DNA of 64,000 bases, taken from the NCBI GenBank assembly GCA_021648145.1, contig JAKITI010000012.1, positions 1-64,000 on the forward strand, given 5' to 3'. This stretch comes from Gammaproteobacteria bacterium. Its GTDB lineage: Bacteria; Pseudomonadota; Gammaproteobacteria; JAADGQ01. Both the position numbers and the translations under genes were made by a program. A model generated the notes under the pieces. It saw nothing but the letters and a program-made list of their open reading frames with translations, did no database searches and was not told the origin of the DNA. Positions 7,908 through 52,667 of the stretch are shown in pieces (position 1 is the stretch's first letter; each line of letters begins with the position of its first letter).

Positions 7908-8010
7908 GTGAATCCCCATTTGAAACAACAAAAAACGAATGGAAAAAATTATTATTTTTTGGCTATCTTCATGTATCGGTCGCGTAAGCCAAAAGTTGAG
8001 TAATTAGTGA

Positions 8011-15215: not shown

Positions 15216-16697
15216 ATGAGCCTCGACTACCAATCTCTCGATACCTTACGCCAAAACCATCCTGCATGGCGTTTGTTGGCAAGTCCTCATGCCCCCTTAA
15301 TTGCCAGTTTTTTGCAAACGGCCTATATTGCACCTAATGTTCGTGTGCTTGCTCAAGCCGATTTAACCGAAGCGTTGGAAGATGAGCTGTTTGCCATCAG
15401 AGAATTACAAGGTCCCGACAGTTTTCCTAAATCGGCAGCGGATTATTTGAATGACTGGGCAGCGCCAGAAAAAGGATGGCTGAGAAAGTTTTATCGTCAG
15501 GATTCCGATGAGGTTCAGTTTGACCTGACACCTGCCACAGAAAAAGCCATTGGCTGGCTGGAGTCTTTAAACGAGCGCAGTTTTGTTGGCACCGAATCGC
15601 GCCTTTTAACGCTTTTTGATTTACTCAAACAACTTCAAAAAGGTAGCACCGATGACCCCGAGGCGCGTTTGCAAGAATTGCAAAAACGCCGTGATGAAAT
15701 TGACCGTGAAATCGCCCAAGTCAAACAAGGCAATATTGCATTGCTTGACGATACGGCTTTGCGAGATCGTTTTATGCAGTTCACCCAGCAAGCCAAAGAG
15801 TTGCTTTCTGACTTTAGAGAAGTTGAGCACAACTTTCGTGGGCTAGATCGCAGTGTGCGCGAACGCATTGCGCAATGGCAGGGAGACAAGGGAGAATTGC
15901 TGGAAGAAATCATGGGCGAACGTGATGCTATTGCCGGTTCTGACCAAGGCAATAGCTTTCGTGCCTTCTGGGATTTTTTAATGTCACCCACACGGCAAGA
16001 GGAATTTAGCGAACTGCTCGAACAAGTCCTGATACTGCCAGCCATCACCCAGCTTAAACCGGATTCTCGTACCCGCCGGATTCACTATGACTGGCTGGAA
16101 GCTGGCGAACATACTCAGCGCACGGTTGCCCGCTTGTCACAGCAACTCAGGCGTTTTCTGGATGATCAGGCGTGGCTGGAAAATCGGCGCATCATGAACA
16201 TTCTGCAAGGTATCGAAAGCAAAACATTAAGCTTACGCGAATCACTTTTTTCAACTCAGATCGGCAATGAATTTATGTTTATTGATTCAGGCTCAGCGAC
16301 CATCGACATTCCCATGGAGCGTCCGCTTTATACGCCACCGTTAAAAACCCGCATCGCCAATATTCGCCTTGAAAGCGGTGATGAAAAACTCGATTCCAGT
16401 ATACTATTTTCTCAAATTGTTATTAACAAAGCCGCCATTGCTGGGCATATTCGGCAATCACTGCAACTCAAATCTCAAATATCTTTAACCGATCTCTGTC
16501 TTTCACGCCCAATAAAACAGGGCTTGGCAGAGTTAGTTGCTTATCTTGAATTGGCGGGCGATGATTCCGATCACAATCGATTCAAGTTTATTGTTGATGA
16601 GTCTATTGAAGATAAAATCAGCTGGCAAACAGCGGATGACAGTGACATTTCAACAACGCACTGCGCACGTTTACCTCGCGTTATTTTTTTAAGGTAG
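15216..16697 (+). CDS. jetA: Wadjet protein JetA (DUF3375)
   Basis: The kleisin-like subunit (MukF analogue) of the type I Wadjet complex, an SMC machine that recognises and cleaves closed circular plasmid DNA. The N-terminal region SLDYQSLDTLRQNHPAWRLL is typical of DUF3375. A winged-helix part is followed by a coiled coil near residues 150-230 (ARLQELQKRRDEIDREIAQ). The length of 493 residues is normal. The gene leads a compact jetA-jetB-jetC-jetD operon in the standard type I order, with six bases before jetB. Family and system assignment are strong from the order and combination of all four proteins. Confidence 0.92.
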   Translation: MSLDYQSLDTLRQNHPAWRLLASPHAPLIASFLQTAYIAPNVRVLAQADLTEALEDELFAIRELQGPDSFPKSAADYLNDWAAPEKGWLRKFYRQDSDEVQFDLTPATEKAIGWLESLNERSFVGTESRLLTLFDLLKQLQKGSTDDPEARLQELQKRRDEIDREIAQVKQGNIALLDDTALRDRFMQFTQQAKELLSDFREVEHNFRGLDRSVRERIAQWQGDKGELLEEIMGERDAIAGSDQGNSFRAFWDFLMSPTRQEEFSELLEQVLILPAITQLKPDSRTRRIHYDWLEAGEHTQRTVARLSQQLRRFLDDQAWLENRRIMNILQGIESKTLSLRESLFSTQIGNEFMFIDSGSATIDIPMERPLYTPPLKTRIANIRLESGDEKLDSSILFSQIVINKAAIAGHIRQSLQLKSQISLTDLCLSRPIKQGLAELVAYLELAGDDSDHNRFKFIVDESIEDKISWQTADDSDISTTHCARLPRVIFLR

Positions 16698-16703
16698 TTT
16701 GCT

Positions 16704-17360
16704 ATGAACACCGCAACAGACGTTAACACTGAAAACACAACTCACCCCGACACTGCCGACTTGTCCGTGTTGTTAATCGCACTTTTAAAAGGTGTCATTT
16801 ACCAAGACACAGACTCGGCTCGCTGGAAACAATTACTTAGCCTTCAAGCTCGTGTTCGTGATTATGCCGTGGTGCTGGGCTTGGAATTGATTTTGGATGA
16901 GTCAGAGGGCTATGCGTTTTTCCGCTCTCGAAAAAATGAGATTAATGACACAGATGACAACCCAATAGAAAAAACCGTTCCACGCTTAATTGCGCGGCGG
17001 CCATTGTCTTTTCCCGTTAGCCTGTTGCTCGCCTTGTTACGAAAAAAACTAGCCGAATTTGATGCCAGTGGTGGTGAAACCCGATTGATTTTATCTCGCG
17101 ACGACATCATCGATTTAATGCGCATATTTTTACCAGACAGCAGCAATGATGCAAAACTCGTGGACAAGATAGATCAACACATTAACAAGGTTGTTGACTT
17201 GGGATTTTTACGTCGACTGAAACAAAACTCGTCCGTTCAATTAAAACATTACGAAGTACGGCGCATATTAAAAGCCTTTGTCGATGCCCAGTGGCTGGCA
17301 GATTTTGATTTAAAACTCGAACAGTACAAACAACAACTCATTGAGAAAAATGATGCCTAG
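16704..17360 (+). CDS. jetB: Wadjet protein JetB (DUF4194)
   Basis: The KITE-type subunit (MukE analogue) that binds JetA in the Wadjet complex. This 218-residue protein has the typical DUF4194 layout: a winged-helix core with RWKQLLSLQARVRDYAVVLG and a motif around EGYAFFRSR, then a second winged helix ending in FVDAQWLADFD. It lies six bases after jetA. Its last codons overlap the start of jetC, so the two products are probably made in coupled amounts. Confidence 0.9.
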   Translation: MNTATDVNTENTTHPDTADLSVLLIALLKGVIYQDTDSARWKQLLSLQARVRDYAVVLGLELILDESEGYAFFRSRKNEINDTDDNPIEKTVPRLIARRPLSFPVSLLLALLRKKLAEFDASGGETRLILSRDDIIDLMRIFLPDSSNDAKLVDKIDQHINKVVDLGFLRRLKQNSSVQLKHYEVRRILKAFVDAQWLADFDLKLEQYKQQLIEKNDA

Positions 17361-20300
17361 TAAAGTTACTATAGATAGCCCAGGATTTAATTTTGTCGAT
17401 GATGATACCTTGTCGGGCTTTCGTTTAAAACGTCTGGAGGTTTTTAACTGGGGCACCTTTGATCAACGTGTCTGGTCAATGAATCTTAATGGTAAAAATA
17501 GCCTGTTAACCGGCGACATCGGCTCTGGTAAATCCACATTGGTGGATGCCGTAACCACCCTGTTAGTCCCCGCTAATCGCGTCGCCTATAACAAAGCTGC
17601 CGGCGCTGACCATAAAGAACGTTCACTGAAATCTTATGTGCTCGGTTATTACAAATCTGAACGCAATGATAACTCAAGTAAAGCCAAACCTGTTGCCTTG
17701 CGCGATCATAATAATTATTCGGTTATCTTAGGCGTTTTTTACAATCAAGGCTATGATCAAACAATTACCTTGGCACAAGTTTTTTGGATGAAAGAGCTGC
17801 AAGGACAACCCGAACGTTTTTTTATCGGGTCAGAAAAAGAGCTGGGGATTGCAAAAGATTTTTCACAATTTGGCAGTGAAATAAAAGCATTACGCAAACG
17901 ACTTCGCCAAAACCGCGTGGAAGTCATGGATCGTTTTCCACAATACAGCGCTTGGTTCAGACGGCGTTTTGGCATCGAAAACGAGCAAGCCTTGGATCTT
18001 TTTCATCAAACGGTTTCCATGAAGTCCGTAGGTAACCTCACGGAGTTTGTACGCGGACACATGTTAGAACCCTTTGATACAGGCTCACGCATTAAAGCCT
18101 TGATTGAGCATTTTGACGACCTGAGCCGCGCTCATGCCGCTGTACTTAAAGCTCGCCGACAAATCAACCTGCTGACACCGCTGGTCGATGATTGCGATGT
18201 GTATCAACAGCAAACAAAAATCGTGGCCGAGTTGCGCCAATGTCGGGATTCACTAAACGTGTATTTTTCCCATAATAAATACACTCTCTTAGCCCGGCGT
18301 ATTGAAAAGTTGATTATTGAACTGGAAAAACACAAGAACAAGGTCAAACGTCTGAGCGATGTTCATCAACAACAAGTGGGACAGCAAGCCGAACTTAAAC
18401 AGCAAATCGCACAGAATGGTGGCGACCGCATTGAGCGCATCAAATTCGATATTTCACAAAAAGGGCAAAGCCTGCAACAACGCCGATCAAAGTCGAAAAG
18501 ATATGCCGATCTACTTAAAGCATTAGATATTACGCCTCAAGAATCAGATGCGGGTTTTATTCAGCAGCAAACCGAGCTTCAGGAAAAATCACAAAATCTC
18601 AAGAAAAACGAAGCGGATCTGGAAAACAAATTACAGGATATCAGCTATGACTTTCGACATAAAAATGAACTGCATGAGGCTCAGAAAAGTGAAATTGCCA
18701 GTCTAAAATCCCGTCGCAGTAACATTGATCAAAATCAAATCATTATTCGCACGGCGTTATGTGAAGCGTTGCAACTGGACGAAGAAAAACTCCCCTTTGC
18801 GGGTGAACTCATTCAGGTAAGAGAAGAAGATAAAGCCTGGCAAGGCGCGGCAGAGCGTCTATTGCGAAATTTCGGCCTGTCTTTGCTTGTGCCTGACGAG
18901 CACTATAACCAAGTTGCCGTTTGGATAGACAAAACGCATCTACGAGGTCGCCTGGTTTATTACCGTGTCACTGAAGCGGCCAATCAATCATTGCCTTCGT
19001 TGCATCCTGATTCGCTCGTTAATAAATTATCCATAAAACCCGACTCACAATTTTATCTTTGGCTGGAGCAGGAAATTGCTCGACGGTTTAACATTGCTTG
19101 TTGCGCAAGTACCGAACAATTTCGTCGAGAAAAACGCGCCATCACTCAGAGCGGACAAATTAAAAGTGGCGGTGGGCGGCATGAAAAAGATGATCGACAC
19201 AATATTAATGATCGTAGTCGTTACGTATTGGGTTGGAGTAACAAAGATAAAATTGCAGCCTTGGAAGCTCAGGCAAAGCAACTGCAAAATCAAATTGCTG
19301 ATTTGGCGAACCAAATCGTACAACAGCAAAGTCAAATTAAATCCCTAAAAACAGCATTGGACACCCTGAGCAAACTGGAAGAGTACCGTGATTTTCAAGA
19401 GCTGGATTGGCAGCCCGTATCACTGTCGATAGAGCAACTTAAAGACGAATTGCGGCAGCTGGAATCCGCCTCAAATTTATTGCAAACACTCACCTCAAAA
19501 CTTGAGCAACTGGAACAAGCACACGAAACAACAATAACGCAGTTAGATGCGGCAAAAGATAATCGCTCTCGAACAGAGCAGAAAAAACAGGACTCAGAAA
19601 CTCTATACCAAGAAATTCAGGTGTTTTTAGACAGTCCGGAAAGTTTGGCCAGTAAAAACTATTTTGATGCGCTGGATAATTTTCGCCAACTGGCATTGGG
19701 TGAACACACGCTCAGCATTGAATCTTGCGATAACAAAGAACAGGATATGCGAAAATGGCTGCAAGAAAAAATCAATGCTGACGACCAAAAAATCAGTCGC
19801 CTGCGTGATCGCATTATCAAGGTCATGTCGGATTACATTACGGAGTACCCACTGGAAACGCAAGAAGCCGATGCGGCCATTGATAGCGCGGAAGATTTTC
19901 GACAAATGTTAGCAAATCTGGCCGCCGATGACTTGCCGCGTTTTGAATCTCGTTTTAAAGAGTTACTCAACGAAAACACGATTCGGGAAGTTGCCAACTT
20001 TCAATCACAATTAAATCGTGAGCGGGAAACTATCCGGGAGCGGATCGAACACATTAACGAATCACTGACTCAAATTGACTACAATTCAGGGCGTTACATT
20101 CTTTTGGAGGCTCAGCCGACGCAAGATGCCGATATTCGTGATTTTCAGACCGAGCTACGAACATGCACAGAAGGTAGCCTTACCGGCTCGGATGACGAGC
20201 AATATTCAGAAGCAAAATTTCTGCAAGTCAAAAACATCATTGAACGCTTTCGCGGGCGTGAAGGGCTGAGCGATCAAGACAAACGCTGGACAAATAAAGT

Positions 20301-20745
20301 CTGTGATGTACGAAACTGGTTCACCTTTGCCGCGTCAGAACGCTGGCGCGAAGATAACAGCGAACATGAGCATTACTCTGACTCCGGCGGCAAATCGGGT
20401 GGGCAAAAAGAAAAGCTGGCCTATACCATTTTAGCCGCCAGCCTCGCCTACCAGTTTGGTCTGGAGTGGGGCGCAGTTCGCTCTCGATCATTTCGATTCG
20501 TGGTCATTGACGAAGCATTTGGTCGTGGCTCTGACGAATCCGCACAATATGGCTTGAAGTTATTCGAGCAATTGAATCTTCAGCTTCTCATTGTAACGCC
20601 GCTGCAAAAAATTCACATCATCGAGCCGTATGTTTCCAGTGTGGGGTTTGTGCATAATGATGCGGGGCGTGATTCTAAAATCCGCAATTTAAGCATTGAG
20701 GCTTATCAAAAGGAAAAAACTCAAGCCGCGCAGCTTGAAACGTAA
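17350..20745 (+). CDS. jetC: Wadjet SMC-like ATPase JetC
   Basis: The MukB-like motor of the complex, which extrudes DNA loops. Walker A TGDIGSGKSTLVDAV lies near residue 55 after a LEVFNWGTF motif typical of this group. Long coiled coils flank a hinge in the middle (around residues 480-580). The C-terminal head has signature SGGQKEKLAYTILAAS and Walker B FRFVVIDEAFGRGSDE. I start it at ATG 17350 (another ATG follows at 17353); a TTG at 17341 is also in frame. The product is about 1131 residues, a normal length, with no frameshift, so the ATPase should be functional. Confidence 0.93.
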   Translation: MMPSKVTIDSPGFNFVDDDTLSGFRLKRLEVFNWGTFDQRVWSMNLNGKNSLLTGDIGSGKSTLVDAVTTLLVPANRVAYNKAAGADHKERSLKSYVLGYYKSERNDNSSKAKPVALRDHNNYSVILGVFYNQGYDQTITLAQVFWMKELQGQPERFFIGSEKELGIAKDFSQFGSEIKALRKRLRQNRVEVMDRFPQYSAWFRRRFGIENEQALDLFHQTVSMKSVGNLTEFVRGHMLEPFDTGSRIKALIEHFDDLSRAHAAVLKARRQINLLTPLVDDCDVYQQQTKIVAELRQCRDSLNVYFSHNKYTLLARRIEKLIIELEKHKNKVKRLSDVHQQQVGQQAELKQQIAQNGGDRIERIKFDISQKGQSLQQRRSKSKRYADLLKALDITPQESDAGFIQQQTELQEKSQNLKKNEADLENKLQDISYDFRHKNELHEAQKSEIASLKSRRSNIDQNQIIIRTALCEALQLDEEKLPFAGELIQVREEDKAWQGAAERLLRNFGLSLLVPDEHYNQVAVWIDKTHLRGRLVYYRVTEAANQSLPSLHPDSLVNKLSIKPDSQFYLWLEQEIARRFNIACCASTEQFRREKRAITQSGQIKSGGGRHEKDDRHNINDRSRYVLGWSNKDKIAALEAQAKQLQNQIADLANQIVQQQSQIKSLKTALDTLSKLEEYRDFQELDWQPVSLSIEQLKDELRQLESASNLLQTLTSKLEQLEQAHETTITQLDAAKDNRSRTEQKKQDSETLYQEIQVFLDSPESLASKNYFDALDNFRQLALGEHTLSIESCDNKEQDMRKWLQEKINADDQKISRLRDRIIKVMSDYITEYPLETQEADAAIDSAEDFRQMLANLAADDLPRFESRFKELLNENTIREVANFQSQLNRERETIRERIEHINESLTQIDYNSGRYILLEAQPTQDADIRDFQTELRTCTEGSLTGSDDEQYSEAKFLQVKNIIERFRGREGLSDQDKRWTNKVCDVRNWFTFAASERWREDNSEHEHYSDSGGKSGGQKEKLAYTILAASLAYQFGLEWGAVRSRSFRFVVIDEAFGRGSDESAQYGLKLFEQLNLQLLIVTPLQKIHIIEPYVSSVGFVHNDAGRDSKIRNLSIEAYQKEKTQAAQLET

Positions 20746-20753
20746 ATCGAACC

Positions 20754-21956
20754 ATGCTCTGGACTCAAGCCAAAGACTTGCAAAAACAAATACAGCGCCT
20801 TTGGGATCGGGGCATTATTCTTAACAGTTTATTGTGTGACAAACCTGTCTTTCCCATACGTTTGTTATTAAAAACGCCCACTAGCAAAGAGCTGTCGGAA
20901 AACTTTGATCAAGTCAGGCAGTGGATTTCATCATTACAAGACATAAAAAGTTTACGTCTAGAAATGAAGACAATACAACATCGCATTCTCGGTGAAAACC
21001 AGGTTCCCGCAGCCATTTGGTTAGACAGTCTGGACGATGCTATCAAGATACTCCGCGTGAAAAATGACGTTCAAACATTCTCTGAGCTTATTGCGCTGAC
21101 GAAAAAAAATCACCCCGCACTCATTGACTGGATAAAAAATCACTGCATAAAAACCTGGCAACTTGCCGAGGCATGGCCAAAACTACTTGATGTTATTGAC
21201 TGGATAAAAAGAAACCCAAATTCCGGAATTTATCTGAGACAAGTGGACATTCCTGGCATTGATAGTAAATTCATCGAACATCACCGAAAGATACTGACAA
21301 CATTATTGGATTTATCGTTACCTGACAGCGCCATTAAGCAGCACGCTACTGGAGCACGTCACTTTGCTCAGCGATACGGCTTTCAGGGCAAGCCCACAAG
21401 AGTGCGTTTTCGTATACTCGACCCAGACATTCAACTGATCCCCGGCAATTGTCAAGACTTGACCGTCAGTCATGCAGCATTTAGTCAGTTAGATGAAAAC
21501 CCTCAAATCAAAACTCAACTGAAAACATTAATTATTACTGAAAATGAAATCAACTTTCTGGTATTTCCAGAAATGCAACATAGCATGGTGATTTTTGGTG
21601 CAGGTTACGGTTTTGAATTTTTGAGTAATGTAAGCTGGTTATCCCAATTAAATATTTACTACTGGGGGGATATTGACACGCATGGCTTTGCAATCCTGGA
21701 TCAACTAAGGGCTAAGTTGCCACACACGACAAGTATTTTGATGGATGAAAAAACGCTGCTAGATCATCGATCATTCTGGGAGTTGGAGCATAAACCTTCA
21801 ATACGAGAATTGACAAAATTAAGTCCAAAAGAAAATCAGCTATATCATAATTTGATAAATAATACTTTTGCCGACAAATTGCGTTTGGAGCAAGAGAGAA
21901 TTGGTTATGCCTATGTATTAGCGGCGTTGACGGAAAAAATCGGTTGCACGCTTTAG
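20754..21956 (+). CDS. jetD: Wadjet nuclease subunit JetD (DUF3322/DUF2220, TOPRIM)
   Basis: The DNA-cleaving subunit of Wadjet, related to topoisomerase VI A subunits. The N-terminal half matches DUF3322, with FPIRLLLKTPTSKELSENF and a WISSL segment. The C-terminal half is a TOPRIM domain with the conserved glutamate in LIITENEINF and the acidic pair in YYWGDIDTHGFAIL, both intact. At 400 residues it is a normal length. It lies eight bases after jetC. With all four genes whole and catalytic residues present, the system looks active against plasmids. Confidence 0.92.
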   Translation: MLWTQAKDLQKQIQRLWDRGIILNSLLCDKPVFPIRLLLKTPTSKELSENFDQVRQWISSLQDIKSLRLEMKTIQHRILGENQVPAAIWLDSLDDAIKILRVKNDVQTFSELIALTKKNHPALIDWIKNHCIKTWQLAEAWPKLLDVIDWIKRNPNSGIYLRQVDIPGIDSKFIEHHRKILTTLLDLSLPDSAIKQHATGARHFAQRYGFQGKPTRVRFRILDPDIQLIPGNCQDLTVSHAAFSQLDENPQIKTQLKTLIITENEINFLVFPEMQHSMVIFGAGYGFEFLSNVSWLSQLNIYYWGDIDTHGFAILDQLRAKLPHTTSILMDEKTLLDHRSFWELEHKPSIRELTKLSPKENQLYHNLINNTFADKLRLEQERIGYAYVLAALTEKIGCTL

Positions 21957-36176: not shown

Positions 36177-36612
36177 TTTTAAATGGCCAGTACGTATTTA
36201 TTACGAAGATACAGATAGCGGTGGGGTTGTCTATTATGCTAATTATCTGAAGTATATGGAGCGTGCACGTACCGAGTGGCTGCGCAGTTTCGGTATTGAA
36301 CAGCCTCAATTGCAAGAGAAGCATGGCGTTGTTTTTGTAGTGCGTTCAGTTGCGCTAGAATATTTAAGACCCGCGCGATTTAATGATTTTTTACAAGTGA
36401 CCGTTGTTTTGAAAAAATGCGGCAAAGCCAGTATGGTGATGGAGCAAACAGTCTATCGCGTGACCTGTTCCACAAATACCAAATTGGAATTGAATGATAA
36501 TGGAGAGCTTTTGTGCCAAGGAAGGATTAAAATTGCTTGTGTTGATGCAATCACTTTTAAAGCTCGTTCTATACCACAATCTGTATTAGGAGAAATAACA
36601 GATGAATGTTGA
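36160..36612 (+). CDS. ybgC: YbgC-type acyl-CoA thioesterase (Tol-Pal associated)
   Basis: A hot-dog fold thioesterase usually encoded at the head of tol-pal and linked to phospholipid or acyl-CoA metabolism. The active-site loop [20 protein letters not shown] contains the catalytic Asp. Three non-ATG starts are possible (TTG 36157, GTG 36160, GTG 36169), all overlapping the end of ruvB; I chose the middle one without strong evidence. The gene's end overlaps tolQ by 11 bases. Confidence 0.92.
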
Positions 36613-37282
36613 TCTATCACTGGTGCATTTAATCAGTAATGCCAGTTTGTTAGTGCAGTTAGTCATGGTGATTTTATTACTTGCATCACTCATTTCATGG
36701 GCCATGATTTTTCGTAAATGGTCTCTTCTGAAAAAAGCATCCAATGCAGCAGATGACTTTGAGGATCGTTTTTGGTCGGGTAAGGATTTGTCCAATCTCT
36801 ATTCACAAGTGTATTCCGATCGACACAATGCCTCGGGTATGGAAAGTATTTTTATGGCTGGTTTCACTGAATTTGCACGAATGCGCAAACGCACTGGAGT
36901 TGAGCCTGCGGCGCAACTGGAAGGGCCACACCGAGCAATGCGCGTTGCATTGAATCGTGAAGTGGATTCTTTAGAGGTGAATTTATCATTTTTGGCAACG
37001 GTGGGTTCAATCAGCCCTTATATTGGTCTGTTTGGAACAGTGTGGGGCATCATGAATGCTTTTCGTGGTTTGAGTGGGGTGCAACAAGCAACGATTGCTA
37101 TGGTGGCTCCCGGGATTTCTGAAGCATTGATTGCAACTGCAATGGGCTTGTTTGCCGCAATTCCAGCGGTGATTGCATATAATCGTTACTCTGCAGATGT
37201 TGAGCGCTTAGTGAATCGTTTTGATAATTTTTCAGATGAATTTTATACAATTTTACAGCGTAAAGTACATTCACCCAGTTAA
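36602..37282 (+). CDS. tolQ: Tol-Pal motor protein TolQ
   Basis: A proton-channel subunit of the TolQR motor that energises TolA for outer-membrane constriction during division. Three membrane helices are visible (about residues 13-38, 131-153 and 168-190), with the conserved FLATVGSISPYIGLFGTVWG and a GISEALIATAMGLFAAIPA segment. The start ATG has AGGAG well placed. At 226 residues the length is normal. Confidence 0.96.
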   Translation: MNVDLSLVHLISNASLLVQLVMVILLLASLISWAMIFRKWSLLKKASNAADDFEDRFWSGKDLSNLYSQVYSDRHNASGMESIFMAGFTEFARMRKRTGVEPAAQLEGPHRAMRVALNREVDSLEVNLSFLATVGSISPYIGLFGTVWGIMNAFRGLSGVQQATIAMVAPGISEALIATAMGLFAAIPAVIAYNRYSADVERLVNRFDNFSDEFYTILQRKVHSPS

Positions 37283-37307
37283 ATTAAAACAGAAATAGGT
37301 GAAGCCG

Positions 37308-37739
37308 ATGGTTAATGGACGTATTAGAAAACGCCCCATAAGCGAAATTAATGTCGTACCGTACATTGATGTTATGTTGGTGCTACTGATTATTTTTATG
37401 GTCACAGCTCCTTTGATGACTCAGGGAGTACAGGTTGACTTGCCTCAGGCAAGTTCTGAAGCGATCGAATCCAATGAAAAAGAGCCTCTTCAGCTCACAG
37501 TTGATGCGAATGGTAATTATTATATGAATATAGGGGGTGATCCTGAAGAAGCAATTGATGCTGAAACAGTGGTGCTGCGAACATCTACGACTTTGCGTAA
37601 TCAACCGGGTACACCTGTGTATGTTCGGGGTGATGTTGATGTTGATTATGGGTCTGTGATTCAGGCAATGGTGTTGTTGCAGCAAGCGGGAGCATCAAGT
37701 GTTGGATTGATCACCGCAGCGCCTGATAACAGCAAATAA
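37308..37739 (+). CDS. tolR: Tol-Pal motor protein TolR
   Basis: The ExbD-like partner of TolQ. The single membrane helix carries the essential aspartate in INVVPYIDVMLVLLIIFMV. The periplasmic domain follows. I choose ATG 37308, preceded by AGGTGAAG, over the GTG at 37299, giving 143 residues. It lies between tolQ and tolA. Confidence 0.95.
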   Translation: MVNGRIRKRPISEINVVPYIDVMLVLLIIFMVTAPLMTQGVQVDLPQASSEAIESNEKEPLQLTVDANGNYYMNIGGDPEEAIDAETVVLRTSTTLRNQPGTPVYVRGDVDVDYGSVIQAMVLLQQAGASSVGLITAAPDNSK

Positions 37740-43804: not shown

Positions 43805-46705
43805 CTATTTCAGAGTGGAAATATAGGGTGTGCTTTTCTCTTGTTTGTTGTAACGAGCAGGTGATAATTTTTTGAGTGCTTTGATGCTTTTCTTGACCCA
43901 TTGATCATAAATTTTTGATTGAATTCGTCTGGCATTGATTGTGTGTGTGTCAATGGCTTTTTCTTCGAAAGGATACGCTTCTTCTTCCAGTAATATTTCA
44001 TATTGCTCAAGTTCTTCAGCACTCAAACCTGAAGGGCGCTCTGAAGTCATCAGTGCATGACCAAATTCATTGTAAATTTCAGCAATCCGGTACGTTGATT
44101 CTGTTGCAATATCTGCGACGTTATAAGCGATTGCTTTTTGATAACCATTCAGTGCGGCTGTCATTTTCAGTTTCTTCTGCGTCAGGTTTTTCTTGAATGG
44201 TTTGACCAGTTTAATTTTATGAAAAGCAGCATTCTGTGGTTTTACCCGTGCCAAAGCCGCTTTTGCTGTAATGTATTTCATTCGGTCAGTTTTATTTATG
44301 TCAGCGGTGCTTCTTTCCGTATTAATAATATCTTCTAACCAATATTGTTGTTTTTTCTTGTTTCCCTGTTGTTGATAAAGTAGTGCTAGATGGTGGCGTG
44401 CTTCCATGGCTTGTGAAATTGGAAAAGGGTGGAGCGTTATATAGCGTTTATAGGCTTCGATAGCCTGCAAAGGTTGTTGACCTTTTTCGTAGAGCTTTGC
44501 AGCTTGCCAGGCCGCTTCACGCCGGATATCCGGGTTTTGTTCTTTTGTTGATAGAGCCTCGTATACACCTGCGGCTTTTGCGGGTTGGTTATTTTTAATA
44601 TAGGTTTCCGATAAGCGTGCCAAGGCGTTGGGCTGCAATTTATGCCTTGGAAATTCTGTAATAAAATATTCGAGAACTTGAGTTGCTCGGTTCCAATGTC
44701 CCATGGTGATTAGCAGCGCTGCGGCATCGTAGGTTGCAACAGCCGCAACGGAGGAGGCAGACGCTTCTTTTTTAACACGTAAAAAACTCTCTACAGCAAG
44801 CGCTGCCTCTCCTTTGTTTTGCAGGGCTTCACCTTGTTTATAGATTGATGCGGCAAGTTGTTCTTGCCAGGCTTTGCGCTCAGGGTGCTTAAAAGGGGTG
44901 AGTTTCAGGGTGTTTTTGTAAGCCTCTTCTGCCTTGATGTAATTTTGTTGTTCAAAATAAGTATGAGCGATAATCGCCCAGGCTGTCCGCTCTATTTTTG
45001 CATCAATATTTTGTTTCTCTAGAGTTAGAATGCGTTCAGCAATAGATGCTGCGGCCTTGCTTTTTTTCTGTGCGAAAAGTTTTTCGGCGGAATTGATCAG
45101 GACGACAGGTGTTCTGGCATCATCAGGAAAGGCTTTTGTGAAGCGCAGGGCGCTTTTTATCATTTGGGCTTCAAGCGCAATATATTGGTTTGTCTGGGGT
45201 TTGCTGGGCTGTTCAAGGCGATTTTTGTAAGCGGTGAGAGCCGCATAAGCCGCTTCGTTGGAGTGTTTGTGTGGTGGGTAATTATAGGCCGTTTTTTCAT
45301 ATTCAATGGCGGCCTTCTGATACGATCTATTTTCAAATAAAATTTCTGCAAGCATAAAATTGATATTCGCTGCATCGTTATCTTTAGGAAATAGGGTTAG
45401 TAATTGACGATACAATAGGACTGCCTGAGCATATGAGGAGATGTTTTGAGTGGGATTTTTTTGGTACTGAGCATGGTGATGGCGCGCTAAATCACCCATT
45501 GTGCTGGCTAGATAAGGTTTCAGCTTTTTGCGTAGTGTGGGTGTGGTGGAAGCCCAGTATTTACTCTTTATGCCGAAGCGTTTGATAAACTCCTGTTTTG
45601 CATTGAGCGCGTGTTGTATCTGGTTATTTTGGCTATAAGCAAAAATAACTCTTAAGTAGAAAAAGGGAGATTGAGCGTGTTCAGGGTGTTGTTCTACAAA
45701 AGTCAAAAATGTATCTGTGGCATCATCAATGCGGTCATTATCCAGATAAAACTGTCCCAGAGAGTCGTAAATTAAAATTTCATAGTTACGTTTGTTTTTG
45801 GCAAAAAATTCTGACACAGAGTATGCGCCGTCCATATAACTGAATGAGAGTGAAATAACACGCAAGGTGTCATTTCTGAACTCTTTTTCACTGCTTTGCA
45901 AGCCCCGAGTCTGCTCCCATGGCCTGTTTTTTGTATTCAGCTTGATGTCTAGCAGGGCAAATAGAGAGTTGAGTGCTGTTGCATATTTTCCTTGCTTGTA
46001 AAGTGACCAGCCGTGTTTATAGATGGCTCGTTCATAAAATTTGGTTTTGTCTCCCAGATGAATAACAGCCGCATATGCGGCTTCTGCCGCAGCGTATGAT
46101 TGACGGGTGAAATTTATTTCACCGCGACGAAATTGCACTTCACCCAGGTATTTTGAGGTGGTTTTCTTTTTTTGTGGGCGGCCAAAAGAGAGTTCGGGGA
46201 TGCTCTGTTTTTTCCCAAGGTAGGGGGAGCCGGGGTAATCTTTTATTAAAGTATCCAGCGCCTTGAGGGTATTCTCCAGTTGTCCATTATGTTCGTAGGC
46301 TTTGGCTAACTGATACAAGACTCGGTCCTTGGCTGGCATGTCGGGATAGGTTTTTAACAGCTCTTCATAGTGTGCAATGACTTGCTTGTAGATTGCCTCT
46401 TCACTTTGCTGGTTGGTGTTGTTGAATGAGGAGATTAAATCATCAACACGTTCCATCTCCATATCTGCAAGGCGGCGCAAAGCTTCAATGTAATATGGGC
46501 TGCCTTTTGTGGCGCGTTCCAAAACAGTTTTATACGCATTAATCGTTTTATTGTGGTTGACCTCTGTGACTGGGTGCTGCTCAATGGTGACCGCGTTATC
46601 TTCAAGAGATTTGAGTGTAATGACCTTGGATTGTTGCTGATTCCAGGTTGTGCAACCACTGCTTAATAACATGAAAAAAATCACGATAAAAAATAGGTTT
46701 CTCAC
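43805..46705 (-). CDS. very large TPR outer-membrane lipoprotein
   Basis: A 966-residue lipoprotein. The signal peptide ends in lipobox LSSGC (Cys18), with no Asp at +2, so sorting to the outer membrane is expected. Nearly all of the mature protein is helical repeat of TPR type: DRVLYQLAKAYEHNGQLENT, FYLRVIFAYSQNNQIQHALN, ANINFMLAEILFENRSYQKA, AWAIIAHTYFEQQNYIKAEE, LARLSETYIKNNQPAKAAGV and others. It probably serves as a scaffold in the periplasm. It is the last gene of the five-gene operon, overlapping the previous gene by four bases. I do not recognise an orthologue; large TPR lipoproteins occur in several envelope machines. Confidence 0.8.
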   Translation of the reverse strand: MRNLFFIVIFFMLLSSGCTTWNQQQSKVITLKSLEDNAVTIEQHPVTEVNHNKTINAYKTVLERATKGSPYYIEALRRLADMEMERVDDLISSFNNTNQQSEEAIYKQVIAHYEELLKTYPDMPAKDRVLYQLAKAYEHNGQLENTLKALDTLIKDYPGSPYLGKKQSIPELSFGRPQKKKTTSKYLGEVQFRRGEINFTRQSYAAAEAAYAAVIHLGDKTKFYERAIYKHGWSLYKQGKYATALNSLFALLDIKLNTKNRPWEQTRGLQSSEKEFRNDTLRVISLSFSYMDGAYSVSEFFAKNKRNYEILIYDSLGQFYLDNDRIDDATDTFLTFVEQHPEHAQSPFFYLRVIFAYSQNNQIQHALNAKQEFIKRFGIKSKYWASTTPTLRKKLKPYLASTMGDLARHHHAQYQKNPTQNISSYAQAVLLYRQLLTLFPKDNDAANINFMLAEILFENRSYQKAAIEYEKTAYNYPPHKHSNEAAYAALTAYKNRLEQPSKPQTNQYIALEAQMIKSALRFTKAFPDDARTPVVLINSAEKLFAQKKSKAAASIAERILTLEKQNIDAKIERTAWAIIAHTYFEQQNYIKAEEAYKNTLKLTPFKHPERKAWQEQLAASIYKQGEALQNKGEAALAVESFLRVKKEASASSVAAVATYDAAALLITMGHWNRATQVLEYFITEFPRHKLQPNALARLSETYIKNNQPAKAAGVYEALSTKEQNPDIRREAAWQAAKLYEKGQQPLQAIEAYKRYITLHPFPISQAMEARHHLALLYQQQGNKKKQQYWLEDIINTERSTADINKTDRMKYITAKAALARVKPQNAAFHKIKLVKPFKKNLTQKKLKMTAALNGYQKAIAYNVADIATESTYRIAEIYNEFGHALMTSERPSGLSAEELEQYEILLEEEAYPFEEKAIDTHTINARRIQSKIYDQWVKKSIKALKKLSPARYNKQEKSTPYISTLK

Positions 46706-48570
46706 TGCTGGACACCCTTTTCTTCATCTGCCTGATCATAAATCTGGGCAATTGCAATGCTGGCTTGAGCGAGGTAATCAGAGATTCGTTGACTCTTTTT
46801 ATTTAGTACGGTAATCGCCATCTGTTCGATATGATGAGACTGTTTATTCAATAGTTGCTCTATTTTTATCTGTAGATCGTGGGTGCGCTTTTGAAGCGAT
46901 ATGATCTGCTTTTGGTGAGATACAAATGTTTGTGCAACATCATGTTGTTTTTGTTTGATATTTTGTTGGTATTGATCGTACGCTTTTATATTGTCATCAA
47001 GTGACTGAATAGATTGTTTTTTTTCCTGTAAACGTTTATAAAATTGACTGTTGATATTCCATAAAACCAGGCCTTTAAGTAGTCGGTGGCGACCTTGGTA
47101 GTGATTGATGTTTGGGTGTGTAGCGAGTCGTTCAATGCGTTGTTCGATACGTTTGATTCTATCGAGTTGCTCCTTTTCCTGAGCATTGGCGAGTGACTGG
47201 CTGCTGTTATTTTTTTCAATCAGTGCAAACTGTTGGGTGAGTGTTGAGTACCGGGCGTTGACGGTGTTCAAGTGAGCCGCATCGAGCTGTTTATCTATGG
47301 CCGTACTGCGTTTCTTTAATATGTTACGGCGTACATCAATCATGTCGTAATAGAGTGTGAGATCGCTCTGTCTCTGTTGTAATTTAGTTTTCATGAACAC
47401 CAGATCACGATAGCTTTTAAGGACTTCTTGAAAATCATTTTGTGAAAAAAGCACCTGAAGGTAATAGTTTTCAGTGATATTGGTCAGCTCTTGCAACTGC
47501 CAAGGTCCATCCGTTTCATTTTGATTGGGCTGGCCTAATAAGGTATTTGCAAGCTGACTGCCGGGAATGGATTCAATAAAATATTGAATCCGTTGTAACT
47601 GGGTCTTATAAATTTCGACGGCTTGCTGGTATTGTTGCAATGCTTGTTTATGCGCAAAGAGCTGATTCAGTGCATAAGGAGCGGCAAGCAGTGATTCTTG
47701 TACCGCATCATCCAGTTTGTTGTGTTGCTGGAGCTCTTGGGAGTAAACGAGTGCTTGATGAAATTGACTGAGGGCTGAGTGAGTCCAGCCGAGCCCCAGA
47801 AGTGCTTGACTGGCATAAGGGCCATCAAGTTGAATGCGTTCGAAATGTGTTTGTGCCTGATGCCCCTGATAGCGATCCAGATAGATAAACCCTAAGGTCA
47901 GGTTTGCACGGTCACGGAGCGCATTGAACTCTTCATTGCCATTTTTCATTTCAGCAACACGGTTGAGCGCATCAATACCTTGTTGAAACTGTTCACTTTT
48001 TATAAGTGTAACACCTAAGTTATAGCTGCCAAACATTCCCAAAATGGAGTCAGGTTGTATTGTTTTTAAAACGGTTGCAGCGTCTTCATAAGATTGATTT
48101 TTCGTGAGTATTGAAGCCTCTAACAGCAGCCGTTGTTGTTGTAATTCATTGTTCTTTAACGAGCCTTCAATCTTTATTAATGCCTGTTGAGATTTTTGGG
48201 TGTAGCCACGTTGGTGGTAAATTTTTGCTAAAAAAAACCAGGCTTGGTTAAGAGTCTCTACAGGTGTTTTATCTTTAATTAGACGTTCAAAAATTTTACT
48301 TGCTTGGTCATGTATTCCATAAGCGAGATATAGGCTTCCCAAGAGTATTTCAGCATCATGCTCATGTTGCTTCAGACGTTGTTGTTTCTGCGCGGCAAGC
48401 AGGTGAGTGATGGCGGTGTAATAGTTTTGCTGATAAAAGTGCAGTAGTGTTTCACCATAATGGGGCGTTTTGATGGACTCAATTGTTTGAGTGGGCATGA
48501 TGTCACGACCATTAGCGACACTGCTCAGTAGTGCAAAAAGTAGAGCAGAAAAGAGTAACTGTATGCGCAT
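46702..48570 (-). CDS. periplasmic TPR and coiled-coil protein
   Basis: About 622 residues from ATG 48570, which follows the previous stop by one base and begins a clean signal peptide (MRIQLLFSALLFALLSSVANG). An earlier in-frame ATG at 48603 would overlap the upstream gene. The N-terminal half has TPR-type repeats (AEILLGSLYLAYGIHDQASK, AWFFLAKIYHQRGYTQKSQ, ALLGLGWTHSALSQFHQAL). The C-terminal half is long coiled coil rich in Gln, Lys and His. It is likely a periplasmic scaffold that pairs with the TPR lipoprotein. No family is recognised. Confidence 0.75.
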   Translation of the reverse strand: MRIQLLFSALLFALLSSVANGRDIMPTQTIESIKTPHYGETLLHFYQQNYYTAITHLLAAQKQQRLKQHEHDAEILLGSLYLAYGIHDQASKIFERLIKDKTPVETLNQAWFFLAKIYHQRGYTQKSQQALIKIEGSLKNNELQQQRLLLEASILTKNQSYEDAATVLKTIQPDSILGMFGSYNLGVTLIKSEQFQQGIDALNRVAEMKNGNEEFNALRDRANLTLGFIYLDRYQGHQAQTHFERIQLDGPYASQALLGLGWTHSALSQFHQALVYSQELQQHNKLDDAVQESLLAAPYALNQLFAHKQALQQYQQAVEIYKTQLQRIQYFIESIPGSQLANTLLGQPNQNETDGPWQLQELTNITENYYLQVLFSQNDFQEVLKSYRDLVFMKTKLQQRQSDLTLYYDMIDVRRNILKKRSTAIDKQLDAAHLNTVNARYSTLTQQFALIEKNNSSQSLANAQEKEQLDRIKRIEQRIERLATHPNINHYQGRHRLLKGLVLWNINSQFYKRLQEKKQSIQSLDDNIKAYDQYQQNIKQKQHDVAQTFVSHQKQIISLQKRTHDLQIKIEQLLNKQSHHIEQMAITVLNKKSQRISDYLAQASIAIAQIYDQADEEKGVQQ

Positions 48571-48571
48571 T

Positions 48572-49114
48572 TTAAATTTCAGGTTCCCACACCCTGATAT
48601 CAAATGAGGGTTGCTGTTTTTTCTCTAGATCGACTATTTTTAGTTCGACATATTTGGGCTCGTTTGTTTTATTAATCGAAGTAGTGGCTGCACGTGAATA
48701 GTCTCGTTCATTCGGACCTTTTCCGGTAAAAAAAGCGGTGAGTTTATGTGAGCCATGGCGGATATTGCCTATATGAAGCTGCTGAACACCCCCGCGCCGG
48801 AGGGCATCGGCTTCACTTTCAGTGTAAAGGTAGTTGGCGATTTGTGTATCATCGATTGTTAGCTGAACACTATCAAGGGTGAAAAACTCACCGACATCAA
48901 CAGAGACAAAAACAGTGATTTGGGTGTTGACCGGAAAAAGCAACTCTTCTTCTAAAATAAAAAGATCCCTGTTGAGTTTTAATACTTCATCTTTAAGGGA
49001 CTGAATTTCAGAGTCGAGCGCTTTGGGCGAAACACTATTTTCCGCCACCGTGATGGGTGACATCGCGATAAAAAAAAGTGAGATAAGAAAAAATAGAGTG
49101 AATTTATTTAACAT
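48572..49114 (-). CDS. small periplasmic coiled-coil/beta protein
   Basis: A 180-residue exported protein with signal peptide FTLFFLISLFFIAMSPITVA. A short coiled coil (about residues 33-60, SEIQSLKDEVLKLNRDLFIL) is followed by a beta-rich domain with ITVFVSVDVGEFFTLDSVQL and LHIGNIRHGSHKLTAFFTG, which looks like an immunoglobulin or carbohydrate-binding type sandwich. I do not recognise it. Its place between the VWA/FHA gene and the TPR genes suggests a periplasmic linker in the same complex. Confidence 0.7.
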   Translation of the reverse strand: MLNKFTLFFLISLFFIAMSPITVAENSVSPKALDSEIQSLKDEVLKLNRDLFILEEELLFPVNTQITVFVSVDVGEFFTLDSVQLTIDDTQIANYLYTESEADALRRGGVQQLHIGNIRHGSHKLTAFFTGKGPNERDYSRAATTSINKTNEPKYVELKIVDLEKKQQPSFDIRVWEPEI

Positions 49115-49142
49115 TGTTATTGGCTCAAAATGGGGTCAGGGT

Positions 49143-50621
49143 TTAGGTGCTGTTTTTTGGTTCATCGGGGGGCGGTATCACTCTTTTTTTCGGCTTGGCC
49201 ATGAAAATTGTTGGCGCGTCTTCTTCGTCTAACTGAATTTCTGGTTGCGGATTTGGTTTTGAGTCTGATTTTTTTCGTTGCGGTGCCATGTCAATGACAG
49301 TCGCGTCTTCTAATAGTGCTTCTGGTAATGCGCTTTTGGCTTTGTCGTTAACCTGCATTGCTGGGAGAATGAATATGAATTCATATTTATCCAGACGCAC
49401 TTTATCAAGGTGGCTCAGACGCTGCCATTGGTTGATTTTTTGGTCATTAATGAATGTTCCGTTCGAGCTGTTTTTATCATTAATATAGAATGCATTATCA
49501 CGGTATTCAATGACAGCATGTTCGCGGCTGATTGTATCTTGGTCAATTTCAATGTAATGAAATTCAGAAGAGTGATTGCCAATGGCACGTCCTATGATAG
49601 TGGATGAACGTCCAATATTTAAATGTTTTCGAAGTGTTATACGGTGAATATCTTCCAGATAGGCTTCTGGTACTGGGGTGATGATTGGCCGTACATTTCT
49701 TGATGAACCGCTGGAGTTATCTTTGCCTCTATTTTTGAAGTAAATCAGGAATAATAAACCTGCAACAAGAAACCCGATAACAAGTGCAACATTCGAAAAC
49801 TGGATCGTGTTTTGTTCGCTGCTATTTTCTGGATTGACTGTTTTAATTGTGGGTTCATCTTCGGTAATAGGGCTGAGGCTTGCGTCATACTCGGTTAATG
49901 TATTAATCGAAATTCCGCTGGTTGGAGATATGGAAACGGATTGCCCAGTTATTTGTGCACTGACTTTTCTAAAAATGCCAAGCAGTTCCTGTGCGCTGTT
50001 TGCCGCGTAATATTGACCGGATGTATTTTTTGCCAAATCTTCTGCGAGTGTTTGATATGTATTGTTTGCCAAACTGTTTATCAGTGAAATAGCAAAAATT
50101 TTAATCCCTTCTTCTACTGCAGCAGATGAAAAAGTATTGGTTAACCAATGTTGTTTTTCTTGGTCTTGAACGGTGTCACCTGTGTTAACCGGTTGGTCGC
50201 TAAGGAAAATAATAGATTTTTGCACAGCAGTGTTTGTATCATTATCGTCGGTCAGTATTTCAAATGCTTTTTGCATCGCTTCAGGGCTGTTTGATTGCGT
50301 CAAGCCTGGTTCGAGTTGACCAATGTGAGCCAGCACAGTTTTTCGTGACTCACCAAGTGCTAGGAGTGGCGAGGCGATGGTGGTCTTTTCATCAAAATAA
50401 ACCAATCCAAACTTGACACTATTTTCAAGTGATTCAATGAACTCAAGGGCTGCAACACGAGCCAGTTTGTCGGGATCATTCACCGACATGCTTTGTGAAT
50501 TACTCATGACGAGCACAATTTCATGCTTCGTTTCAGACTGAGCTTGAATATTGGTCGATCCTAAAATAAAAAGGAGAGATAACAATATGTTTAGATAGGA
50601 GGTGATACTATTTTTATGCAT
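49143..50621 (-). CDS. membrane protein with periplasmic VWA and cytoplasmic FHA domains
   Basis: About 492 residues from ATG 50621, which overlaps the ATPase gene by eight bases and begins a signal peptide (NSITSYLNILLSLLFILG). The von Willebrand A domain follows; its metal-site motif reads VMSNSQSM instead of the usual D-x-S-x-S, so the first Asp is lost. A membrane helix (NVALVIGFLVAGLLFLIYF) then leads to a cytoplasmic FHA domain with GRAIGNHSSEF, ISREHAVIEY and NSSNGTFIND, intact for phosphothreonine binding. It could carry a cytoplasmic phospho-signal across the inner membrane. An in-frame start at 50702 is less likely. Confidence 0.82.
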   Translation of the reverse strand: MHKNSITSYLNILLSLLFILGSTNIQAQSETKHEIVLVMSNSQSMSVNDPDKLARVAALEFIESLENSVKFGLVYFDEKTTIASPLLALGESRKTVLAHIGQLEPGLTQSNSPEAMQKAFEILTDDNDTNTAVQKSIIFLSDQPVNTGDTVQDQEKQHWLTNTFSSAAVEEGIKIFAISLINSLANNTYQTLAEDLAKNTSGQYYAANSAQELLGIFRKVSAQITGQSVSISPTSGISINTLTEYDASLSPITEDEPTIKTVNPENSSEQNTIQFSNVALVIGFLVAGLLFLIYFKNRGKDNSSGSSRNVRPIITPVPEAYLEDIHRITLRKHLNIGRSSTIIGRAIGNHSSEFHYIEIDQDTISREHAVIEYRDNAFYINDKNSSNGTFINDQKINQWQRLSHLDKVRLDKYEFIFILPAMQVNDKAKSALPEALLEDATVIDMAPQRKKSDSKPNPQPEIQLDEEDAPTIFMAKPKKRVIPPPDEPKNST

Positions 50622-51786
50622 GGTTTTGAAATGTAAATTGTTGTGAGCCAATGGTGATGATGTCACCGTGATTGAGCTTTTGTTCTTCAATCGGTTTGTC
50701 ATTAATCAGTACACCATTGGCACTGCCATTGTCTCGAATAGTCGCCCGATTATTTTGCATCATTATTTCAGCATGGTAGCGGCTGACTTCCGGGCTAGAA
50801 ATAACGATATCATTATTTTTTTTACGCCCCAGTCGAACCAGCGGAGTATCAAGCGGATACTCTGCAACATACTCTCCTTCCATCGTGAGGAGTAGTTTGG
50901 GTAGTTTTTTGGACAACTCCGGTATTTCAAAATCAGGTAAATATTCAGGTTGTTTTTTATGTATTTTTCGTTCGCTGTAAGGAACCCACCTAAGCTCGGC
51001 CACTGCAATTTTAACTAAATCTTTAGAGACTGTTTTAAGTTCCTCCGCATATGCACCAATAAGTGTCATGTCACATAATACGTTGATGAGCCTAGGGATG
51101 CCGCCCGTATAACGATGGATGATAGGGTATGCATCAGTTTCAAACAGTGATTGGTTTGGCAAACCTGCGACTTTCAGTCGGTGAGTGATATAAGGTTCTA
51201 TATCATTCTCACTGAGTGCTGTGAGGTGAAAACGAAAGCGAACACGTTGTAGCAGTTGTTCCATCTCTGCGGTATCAAGCGTATCATTCAGTTCGGGTTG
51301 TCCGACCAAAACGATATTCAGAACTTTTTTGTTGTGTATCTCCAGTCCTGACAATAAGCGCACCTCTTCAAGCATTTTTTGATCGAGATTTTGCGCTTCA
51401 TCAACAACTAAAAGAACACGTTTTCCCTGTTTATATTGGTGAGTTAAATATTTGTTAATAAGATCTAATAGTTCAACTTTTTTGCTATTGAAGGCATCAA
51501 TTCCAAACTTCACTGCAACCGACTGTATAAACTCAGCTTCACTTAATCGTGTTTGGTGAATGTAAGCGACCACAGTAGATGAACCCAACCCTGAAACAGC
51601 ATGGTCAACGAGTGTGGTTTTTCCTGAGCCAATTTCTCCAGTGACAATAATAGAGCTATCACCCATTAACAAAGCTAAATCCATGTAGGATTTGGCTTTT
51701 ACGTGAATTTTACTCCAATAGATGAATCGAGGGTCTGTGGTTAAGCTAAAAGGAGGTTCCGTTAAGCCAAAATAGTCTGTATACAT
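50614..51786 (-). CDS. ExeA/GspA-like AAA ATPase with C-terminal FHA domain
   Basis: A 390-residue protein. The ATPase part begins with the family start DYFGLTEPPFSLTTDPRF and has Walker A GEIGSGKTT (residues 50-58), Walker B VLLVVDEAQNL (about 124-134) and LVGQPELNDTLD. ExeA-like ATPases act in assembling secretion or polysaccharide export machines. A linker (about 270-300) leads to an FHA domain with LGRKKNNDIVI, VSRYHAEI and GSANGVLIND. FHA on an ExeA-like ATPase is unusual; the usual partner domain is a periplasmic peptidoglycan-binding one, absent here. It is the first gene of the five-gene operon. Confidence 0.85.
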   Translation of the reverse strand: MYTDYFGLTEPPFSLTTDPRFIYWSKIHVKAKSYMDLALLMGDSSIIVTGEIGSGKTTLVDHAVSGLGSSTVVAYIHQTRLSEAEFIQSVAVKFGIDAFNSKKVELLDLINKYLTHQYKQGKRVLLVVDEAQNLDQKMLEEVRLLSGLEIHNKKVLNIVLVGQPELNDTLDTAEMEQLLQRVRFRFHLTALSENDIEPYITHRLKVAGLPNQSLFETDAYPIIHRYTGGIPRLINVLCDMTLIGAYAEELKTVSKDLVKIAVAELRWVPYSERKIHKKQPEYLPDFEIPELSKKLPKLLLTMEGEYVAEYPLDTPLVRLGRKKNNDIVISSPEVSRYHAEIMMQNNRATIRDNGSANGVLINDKPIEEQKLNHGDIITIGSQQFTFQNHA

Positions 51787-51884: not shown

Positions 51885-52667
51885 ATGATGAAGTGTATAT
51901 CAATTTTTTGTGGCAGTTTGTTTGTTTTCGCAAGCGGTTGCAGTCTGGTTCCTGCATATTACGACGTGTCGATGCGTTTTGGTTTTCATGCAGAAAAAAT
52001 AGAAGGTGATCTGTTTCAACATGTGGTTTTTTCTAAAGCAGGTGTTGGGCGTGTGCTGCATGTATATATTGAAGGGGATGGCCGTCCCTGGTTGCATAAA
52101 AACCGGGTTTCACTTGACCCGACCCCACGTCATCTATTAATGATGGAGCTTATGGCGCTGGATGATGCGCCTGCTGTTTATTTAGGTCGTCCCTGTTATT
52201 TTGAGCAGCCCTCGCCGTGTTCACCGATCTGGTGGACACATCGGCGCTACTCTGAGCCTGTTGTGAATAGCATGGCTGTTGCGCTTAAGCACTATTCCAG
52301 TGGCTATGAGTCGGTGGTTTTAATGGGGCATAGTGGTGGGGGTGCATTGGCTATGTTATTGGCTGAGCGAATTGATAAAGTCCAGGCGGTTATAACACTT
52401 GCGGCAAATCTTGATATTAAAAAATGGACGCTATTTCATGGCTACAGCCCATTGGAAGGCTCTCTGAACCCTGCTTTACGCCCACCACTTTCAGCAAAAA
52501 TAGAGCAGTGGCACTATGTGGCAGAAGATGATCACAATATTCAAGTGCAATGGCTTGATCCTGTAATAGATCGACAGCCGAATGCAAAATTAATCAGTAT
52601 AAAGGGAGATCATAGCTGCTGCTGGAGGGCGCAGTGGAATAACATATTGCACACTATGAATCAGTGA
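51885..52667 (+). CDS. alpha/beta-hydrolase lipoprotein
   Basis: A 260-residue predicted lipoprotein with lipobox FASGC (Cys19). The fold is alpha/beta hydrolase: nucleophile Ser in LMGHSGGGALAML and a catalytic His in KGDHSCCW, with an oxyanion region near VYIEGDGRPWL. Its substrate is unknown; an esterase or lipase acting at the envelope fits. It is divergent from the ATPase-FHA operon and its end overlaps the diguanylate cyclase gene by seven bases. Confidence 0.8.
   Translation: MMKCISIFCGSLFVFASGCSLVPAYYDVSMRFGFHAEKIEGDLFQHVVFSKAGVGRVLHVYIEGDGRPWLHKNRVSLDPTPRHLLMMELMALDDAPAVYLGRPCYFEQPSPCSPIWWTHRRYSEPVVNSMAVALKHYSSGYESVVLMGHSGGGALAMLLAERIDKVQAVITLAANLDIKKWTLFHGYSPLEGSLNPALRPPLSAKIEQWHYVAEDDHNIQVQWLDPVIDRQPNAKLISIKGDHSCCWRAQWNNILHTMNQ

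Follow-up and report, generated by a model that had tools for sequence, protein, structure and literature searches.

What do five consecutive minus-strand genes at positions 43805–51786 of a gammaproteobacterial contig (JAKITI010000012.1, assembly GCA_021648145.1) encode, and do their products work together? The window, the whole stretch of 64,000 nucleotides that was analysed, carries there two genes for proteins with FHA domains, P0001 and P0002, followed by three genes for predicted envelope proteins, P0003, P0004 and P0005. A sequence-only reading had proposed a multi-part assembly extending from the cytoplasm to the outer membrane and knew of no named system with this set. The kind of answer was right, because three of the genes are homologous to parts of an envelope-spanning, proton-driven machine; that machine does have a name, as the same three genes match the Agl/Glt core complex (PMC3169522). 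We favour, with a probability of about 60%, the view that this operon supplies the gammaproteobacterial Agl/Glt core machine with an alternative 'transducer' arm that has no motor of its own and stands under two proteins that read phosphothreonine. The genes and their features are as follows.

50614–51786, minus strand: P0001, ExeA-like AAA+ ATPase with a C-terminal FHA domain; 390 residues; Pfam AAA_22 and FHA above cut-off
50647–50838, minus strand: FHA domain of P0001, residues 317–380; Pfam PF00498, E 2.7e-20; GR, SRYH and NGSANG residues kept
49143–50702, minus strand: P0002, VWA domain, transmembrane helix and FHA domain; 519 residues from 50702; Pfam VWA_2 and FHA above cut-off
49392–49598, minus strand: FHA domain of P0002, residues 369–437, predicted cytoplasmic; Pfam PF00498, E 3.2e-15
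49209–49301, minus strand: tail of P0002 with the acidic-Thr-hydrophobic motifs EDATVI (T468) and EDAPTIF (T498), candidate phospho-acceptor and FHA-ligand sites
48572–49114, minus strand: P0003, signal peptide, coiled-coil helix and Ig-like beta sandwich; 180 residues; AlphaFold mean pLDDT (predicted local distance difference test) 74.8; homologues at the same operon position
46702–48570, minus strand: P0004, GltC-like periplasmic protein with TPR and a long coiled coil; 622 residues; assigned by blastp and operon position
43805–46705, minus strand: P0005, GltD-like TPR lipoprotein; 966 residues, GTG start; Pfam TPR above cut-off

The three distal genes and the Agl/Glt core complex

The Agl/Glt core complex (Group B: gltC, gltD, gltE, gltG, aglR, aglQ and aglS) is the core of the Myxococcus gliding machinery. 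Its genes also cluster in Gammaproteobacteria, where their function was called unknown in 2011; the Group A genes (gltA, B, F, H, I, J and K) were reported only in Myxococcales and Bdellovibrionales (Luciano et al., 2011, PMC3169522). In the literature library that we searched, we found no study of the gammaproteobacterial complex after 2011, and nothing matching a system of FHA, VWA and TPR proteins.

The operon at locus L007 of Alcanivorax begins with homologues of P0003, P0004 and P0005; behind them come a TPR lipoprotein, a small gene, one ExbB, two ExbD and a TonB-like gene. P0005 is 32–44% identical, over nearly its full length, to the genes at the GltD position of complete operons and groups with them as gltD-type; its identity is 32% to the Alcanivorax gene and 37%, over 973 columns, to a paralogue on contig C17 of its own genome. 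P0004 occupies the same operon position as its Alcanivorax counterpart (blastp 25.6% identity over 582 residues, E 1.7e-48) and falls with the gltC type. In domain type and size as well as position, the two proteins correspond to gltC and gltD of the gammaproteobacterial operon. In most genomes the Glt-type operon begins with a homologue of P0003; P0003 is one of the two small genes usual there, and these two, the P0003-like gene and a gene of about 100 residues before aglR, are the candidates for the additional core-complex gene without a Myxococcales homologue.

The remaining components lie elsewhere in the genome. Contig C17 carries a full set: a shortened gltC, gltD, gltE, the small gene, ExbB, ExbD, ExbD and gltG. 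Its GltG-like protein passes the NCBIfam model NF033768, 'AgmX/PglI C-terminal domain' (59 bits, cut-off 40), its motor subunits pass Pfam MotA_ExbB and ExbD, and its GltE-like protein scores 50 bits against NF033758 (GltE), below the cut-off of 225. The AglRQS motor, one ExbB and two ExbD, is thus present on C17 and absent from the window operon; a gltE TPR lipoprotein and a GltG with the AgmX/PglI-type, TonB-like C terminus are absent from the window. Compared with the canonical complex, the window set therefore lacks motor, GltE and GltG, the parts are spread over at least two contigs, and two FHA genes head the operon. At the level of sequence, P0003, P0004 and P0005 are established as motor-less paralogues of the first three core-operon genes, which we call P3, gltC and gltD. 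The first ExbD-like subunit (L017 5260–5748 and 47 homologues) has Asn in place of the channel Asp in 48/48 cases; the second has the Asp in all 27 scored by pattern.

Motor-less sets and a proposed motor in trans

A strong GltD-like match (E ≤ 1e-30) was found in 88 of 369 gammaproteobacterial genomes; only the two top-scoring candidates in each genome were considered, and third copies may be missed. We read the neighbourhoods at more than 60 GltD-like loci. In its fullest form the order is HZS_alpha-like gene, SH3, outer-membrane protein, TlpA and DUF3570, then in some cases ApbE, then P3, gltC, gltD, gltE, the small gene, aglR, aglQ, aglS and gltG. The first five genes, the DUF3570 module, or ApbE are present at about half of the loci read.

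The window set is one of a recurrent kind. All 15 resolvable motor-less sets, which also lack gltG, are accompanied by a second, motor-bearing set in the same genome, and none of the 25 single-set genomes is without a motor (motor-less in 15/20 versus 0/25 single-set genomes; Fisher test, 4.5e-8). The genomes are drafts in which an absence may be a contig end; loci seen to be cut in this way (L145, L151 and L167) were left out of the counts, and L082 stayed in although its sequence extends only 3.2 kb downstream. In a GltD tree of P0005 and 65 other GltD-like rows, the sets of the window, of a sister species of the same genus and of G004, a genome of the same family, form one starred clade, and twelve other resolvable sets are also motor-less. 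On this tree, in which two rows cut by contig ends count as motor-less, the motor state must change seven times, and starred branches force no fewer than three of these changes, so the pattern does not go back to one inherited event.

Motor-less sets were found only in genomes with a motor-bearing set, and they recur on the tree. Most simply, the presence of a second motor allows a set to lose its own, which would mean that the motor is shared in trans. A precedent exists in Myxococcus xanthus, where AglRQS serves both Glt and the sporulation complex Nfs, leaving Glt to drive Nfs (Wartel et al., 2013, PMC3858216). Nfs, a Glt paralogue without a motor of its own, resembles the arm proposed here; it differs in having its own adaptor, NfsG, and in serving spore-coat assembly, and the borrowing in our genome is drawn by analogy. 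The C17 motor would act on the window GltC/GltD arm in the same manner, and the driven arm would move an assembly reaching from the periplasm to the outer membrane.

The five-gene locus and its FHA genes

The sequence-only reading described five minus-strand genes with overlaps or short gaps, and every open reading frame was confirmed at its position. The spacing is operon-like, with overlaps of a few bases or gaps of at most 28 bases; the cellular locations of the proteins are sequence-based predictions. Pfam supports the domains of the ATPase, the VWA protein and P0005; the TPR matches of P0004 fall below the Pfam cut-off. The TTG at which the 633-residue frame of P0004 begins lies too far upstream, and the ATG at 48570 gives 622 residues. 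P0002 most likely starts at an internal ATG at 50621, just before the signal peptide and still overlapping the end of P0001. The AlphaFold models of P0003 and P0004 were built on four sequences. A fold search with the former yielded unspecific folds with many beta sandwiches among them, and none of the matches had an E below 0.001; the latter, of TPR and long helices, has a mean pLDDT of only 64 and was deemed too uncertain for such a search. Against solved structures, P0001 and P0005 matched FHA domains, a small GTPase (weakly) and engineered TPRs. A sigma-70 scan gave no more sites than in shuffles and terminator matches were scattered inside genes, so neither was used.

In the sister species (L005; G005 in the whole-genome set) all five genes are intact and in the same order, between queC and an alpha/beta hydrolase. 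Protein identity to the window genes is 72–88% (72% for P0002), and the ratio of non-synonymous to synonymous substitution rates (dN/dS) is 0.08–0.18, which argues against a chance arrangement and indicates that the operon is under purifying selection.

Outside the genus the set comes apart. Full-length orthologues of P0001 are mostly solitary; the closest, in other gammaproteobacterial families, are 45–48% identical to it. Homologues of the VWA-FHA gene lie beside birA/coaX-like genes, or beside a PP2C phosphatase and a hydrolase. In one such genome (G200; L105, G200:C262, 1132–5478), PP2C, VWA-FHA and a lipoprotein hydrolase adjoin, and the hydrolase is 42% identical to the alpha/beta hydrolase at 51885–52667 of the window, which links that gene to the FHA genes. 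In G004, P3-gltC-gltD adjoins ApbE, and VWA-FHA lies on another contig. Since VWA-FHA has these other contexts and G004 separates it from P3-gltC-gltD, the five-gene unit is a genus-level composite, the FHA genes joining P3-gltC-gltD only in the genus of the window. The sequence-only reading had treated the five genes as one unit and had named independent occurrence, or a match to a known system, as grounds for abandoning it; both were largely found. Set and order are kept in the sister species only, and we rejected the five genes as a conserved system, as VWA-FHA is found with other neighbours and in genomes without GltD.

How, then, might the FHA proteins act on the arm? Both FHA domains keep their canonical residues. 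The tails of 13 VWA-FHA homologues contain 28 acidic-Thr-hydrophobic motifs, where 2000 shuffles gave a mean of 2.1 and a maximum of 9. On these grounds phosphorylation control, which the sequence-only reading had put forward, is plausible and is kept here as a proposal. That reading also noted the lack of a Ser/Thr kinase in the window, which is true; the genome has three clear Pkinase genes: one beside a type VI secretion system (C19), one in a PP2C-kinase fusion (C3), and one, with a predicted transmembrane helix, in a cluster with PP2C, ApbE and gmk (C7). The C7 order of kinase, PP2C, ApbE and gmk is kept in the sister species, as are two tail-like motifs after the DFG of the kinase (DKTLF and DTTIF). 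A co-occurring kinase had been called for, and the C7 kinase partly answers: 9/11 of its full-length orthologues are in GltD-positive genomes, against 85/366 genomes overall (p 5e-5), with no close C7 kinase in G004. One motor-less set (L079) adjoins PP2C/kinase and gmk genes. A further ExbB/ExbD pair lies near the sister-species kinase cluster (L174; G005:C42, 9463–10511). The type VI genes on C19 (L018; G000:C19, 6663–17530) include a PpkA-like kinase and TagH, and their TssL-like protein has a EGRTVVRPRPGG motif.

In the mechanism we propose, P0002 would be the inner-membrane adaptor of the window arm, taking the place of GltG. Like M. xanthus GltG (PglI), which carries an FHA domain and is a TonB-like adaptor (PMC3169522), it is a membrane protein with FHA; it differs in having VWA and no TonB-like C terminus, and its weak match to the GltG model covers the FHA region only. 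A membrane Ser/Thr kinase, for which the C7 kinase with its PP2C phosphatase is the best candidate, would phosphorylate the Thr motifs in the P0002 tail. The FHA domain of P0001 could dock on the phosphorylated tail, whereupon the AAA+ ATPase would assemble or engage the arm.

The strongest competitor holds that the locus is a composite that encodes no joint machine: ExeA-FHA and VWA-FHA would be an unrelated phospho-signalling pair at queC, behind which a spare P3-gltC-gltD was inserted under the same promoter. We consider this a real possibility, although clearly the less probable one. It would account for the confinement of the five-gene order to one genus, for the position of VWA-FHA in G200 between PP2C and the hydrolase homologue, and for ExeA-FHA standing beside queC, as it does in the sister species, in L109 and L112, two genomes without GltD that belong to another family. 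It fits less well with a sister species that keeps order and overlaps although the distal genes have diverged to a dS of 1.05–1.57, or with the co-occurrence of ExeA-FHA and GltD above chance (11/16 full-length ExeA-FHA outside the family of the window are in GltD-positive genomes; p 9e-5). The joining of an FHA domain to the machine in M. xanthus GltG also speaks against it (PMC3169522).

Several points weigh against the motor-less arm under FHA control. Its Glt identity was drawn from the layout of the operon, from two NCBIfam models and from Luciano et al. (2011) rather than from comparison with M. xanthus sequences, and GltC-like proteins are only 24–32% identical between types. None of the ten VWA-FHA genomes outside the family has GltD, so a role for VWA-FHA in this operon would be a novelty of the genus. 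Within the family, G004 has P3-gltC-gltD with neither FHA genes beside it nor a close C7 kinase. The counts take no account of phylogeny; by family, the co-occurrence of the kinase and of ExeA-FHA with GltD is 6/8 and 9/12, respectively. The Thr motif, moreover, was defined after some of the tails had been viewed.

The DUF3570 module and the remaining alternatives

The neighbours of Glt operons hint at what the machine may serve. The Glt-linked DUF3570 subfamily matches Pfam PF12094 only partially (75–155 bits) and is found in 54 GltD-positive genomes and one GltD-negative genome (p 4e-40). In our genome the module lies on C3, a contig apart from the Glt genes (L170; G000:C3, 10666–17866), with an HZS_alpha-like protein that has two CxxCH motifs, SH3, an outer-membrane protein, TlpA and DUF3570; in many relatives it is directly upstream of P3-gltC-gltD. 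Gene order and co-occurrence suggest a link between the Glt machine and an outer-membrane, redox-like module.

ApbE is known to use DUF3570 proteins as substrates (Meheust et al., 2021, PMC8238504), and the flavinylation clusters of ApbE, DUF3570, thioredoxin and DUF4266 described there share with the gammaproteobacterial Glt operon its common upstream neighbours, the DUF3570 subfamily, TlpA and often ApbE. They differ in that the parts in our genome are on other contigs (C3 and C7) and in the sequence of DUF3570 itself: the [ST]GA[ST] flavinylation motif is present in 3/16 Glt-linked proteins (L170 10666–11937 and homologues) and missing in 13/16, the motif-less proteins inspected having S-S-A-S where the three have S-G-A-S. 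Flavinylation of the Glt-linked proteins is thus doubtful, and the case for them as normal ApbE substrates is weakened. The main text of PMC8238504 is without the terms TPR, tetratricopeptide, ExbB and TolQ.

A fuller version of the preferred reading can be drawn from this link: Gammaproteobacteria would run interchangeable Glt arms on one shared proton motor. In the genus of the window, a kinase, a phosphatase and a pair of FHA readers would switch one arm, acting through an ExeA-type AAA+ ATPase, and the machine would serve a redox-active outer-membrane module of DUF3570, thioredoxin and CxxCH protein, a role other than gliding. We offer this version tentatively, at well under even odds.

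The same association could be taken to mean that the window P3-gltC-gltD is a motor-independent scaffold, such as a fixed component that holds the DUF3570/TlpA/cytochrome-like module of C3 in position. The module's place directly upstream of P3-gltC-gltD in many relatives, its presence in our genome and the 54/55 co-occurrence of its DUF3570 type with GltD fit such a scaffold, but alone it gives no explanation for motor-less sets having been found only in genomes with another motor, and we regard it as unlikely.

Less likely again is that Tol-Pal drives the arm, with TolQR replacing AglRQS. TolQ and TolR lie in the same window, at 36602–37739, about 6 kb away; the C17 ExbB is a homologue of TolQ, and the second ExbD of that contig matches the TolR model. 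Tol-Pal is widespread in Gammaproteobacteria, and if TolQR were sufficient, loss of the motor would be expected in single-set genomes too, yet these always keep an AglRQS-type motor.

Individual candidates from known export systems were rejected. P0001 scores 283.1 bits against TIGR03015, below the 324.5 required of an XrtA/PEP-CTERM ATPase; it ends in FHA, with no peptidoglycan-binding domain and no ExeB partner in the operon, which sets it apart from ExeAB/GspAB of type II secretion. P0002 reaches 41 bits against a cut-off of 120 for TagH of type VI secretion. The PpkA/TagH phospho-signalling of that system has a kinase, an FHA reader and TVI-type Thr motifs in common with our proposal, but in this genome it is a separate system on C19. 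A role in secretion or in the export of polysaccharide, by a type II, type VI or XrtA/PEP-CTERM system, is accordingly very improbable, since the resemblance of P0001 to ExeA and the PEP-CTERM ATPase and of the P0002 FHA region to TagH stays below curated cut-offs throughout, the type VI system elsewhere has its own TagH and kinase, and no secretin, exosortase or sheath gene was seen in or near the operon.

Elsewhere, the window contains a complete Wadjet type I system, JetABCD, by PADLOC models (15216–21956), a probable peptide export system of an HlyD-like protein, an ABC exporter resembling the C39-peptidase type and a TolC-like protein (917–5600), and a secreted, multihaem cytochrome-like protein with many CxxCH motifs (6321–7931).

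Motor-less paralogous sets were found only in genomes that also have a motor-bearing set, a testable pattern from which exchangeable arms are predicted outside Myxococcus. The close tie (54/55) of a DUF3570-type outer-membrane module to the Glt machine is a second testable pattern. The FHA genes of the operon provide a concrete control point for testing. Together these observations suggest that bacteria exchange the outer components of a common motor and may control these components by phosphorylation.

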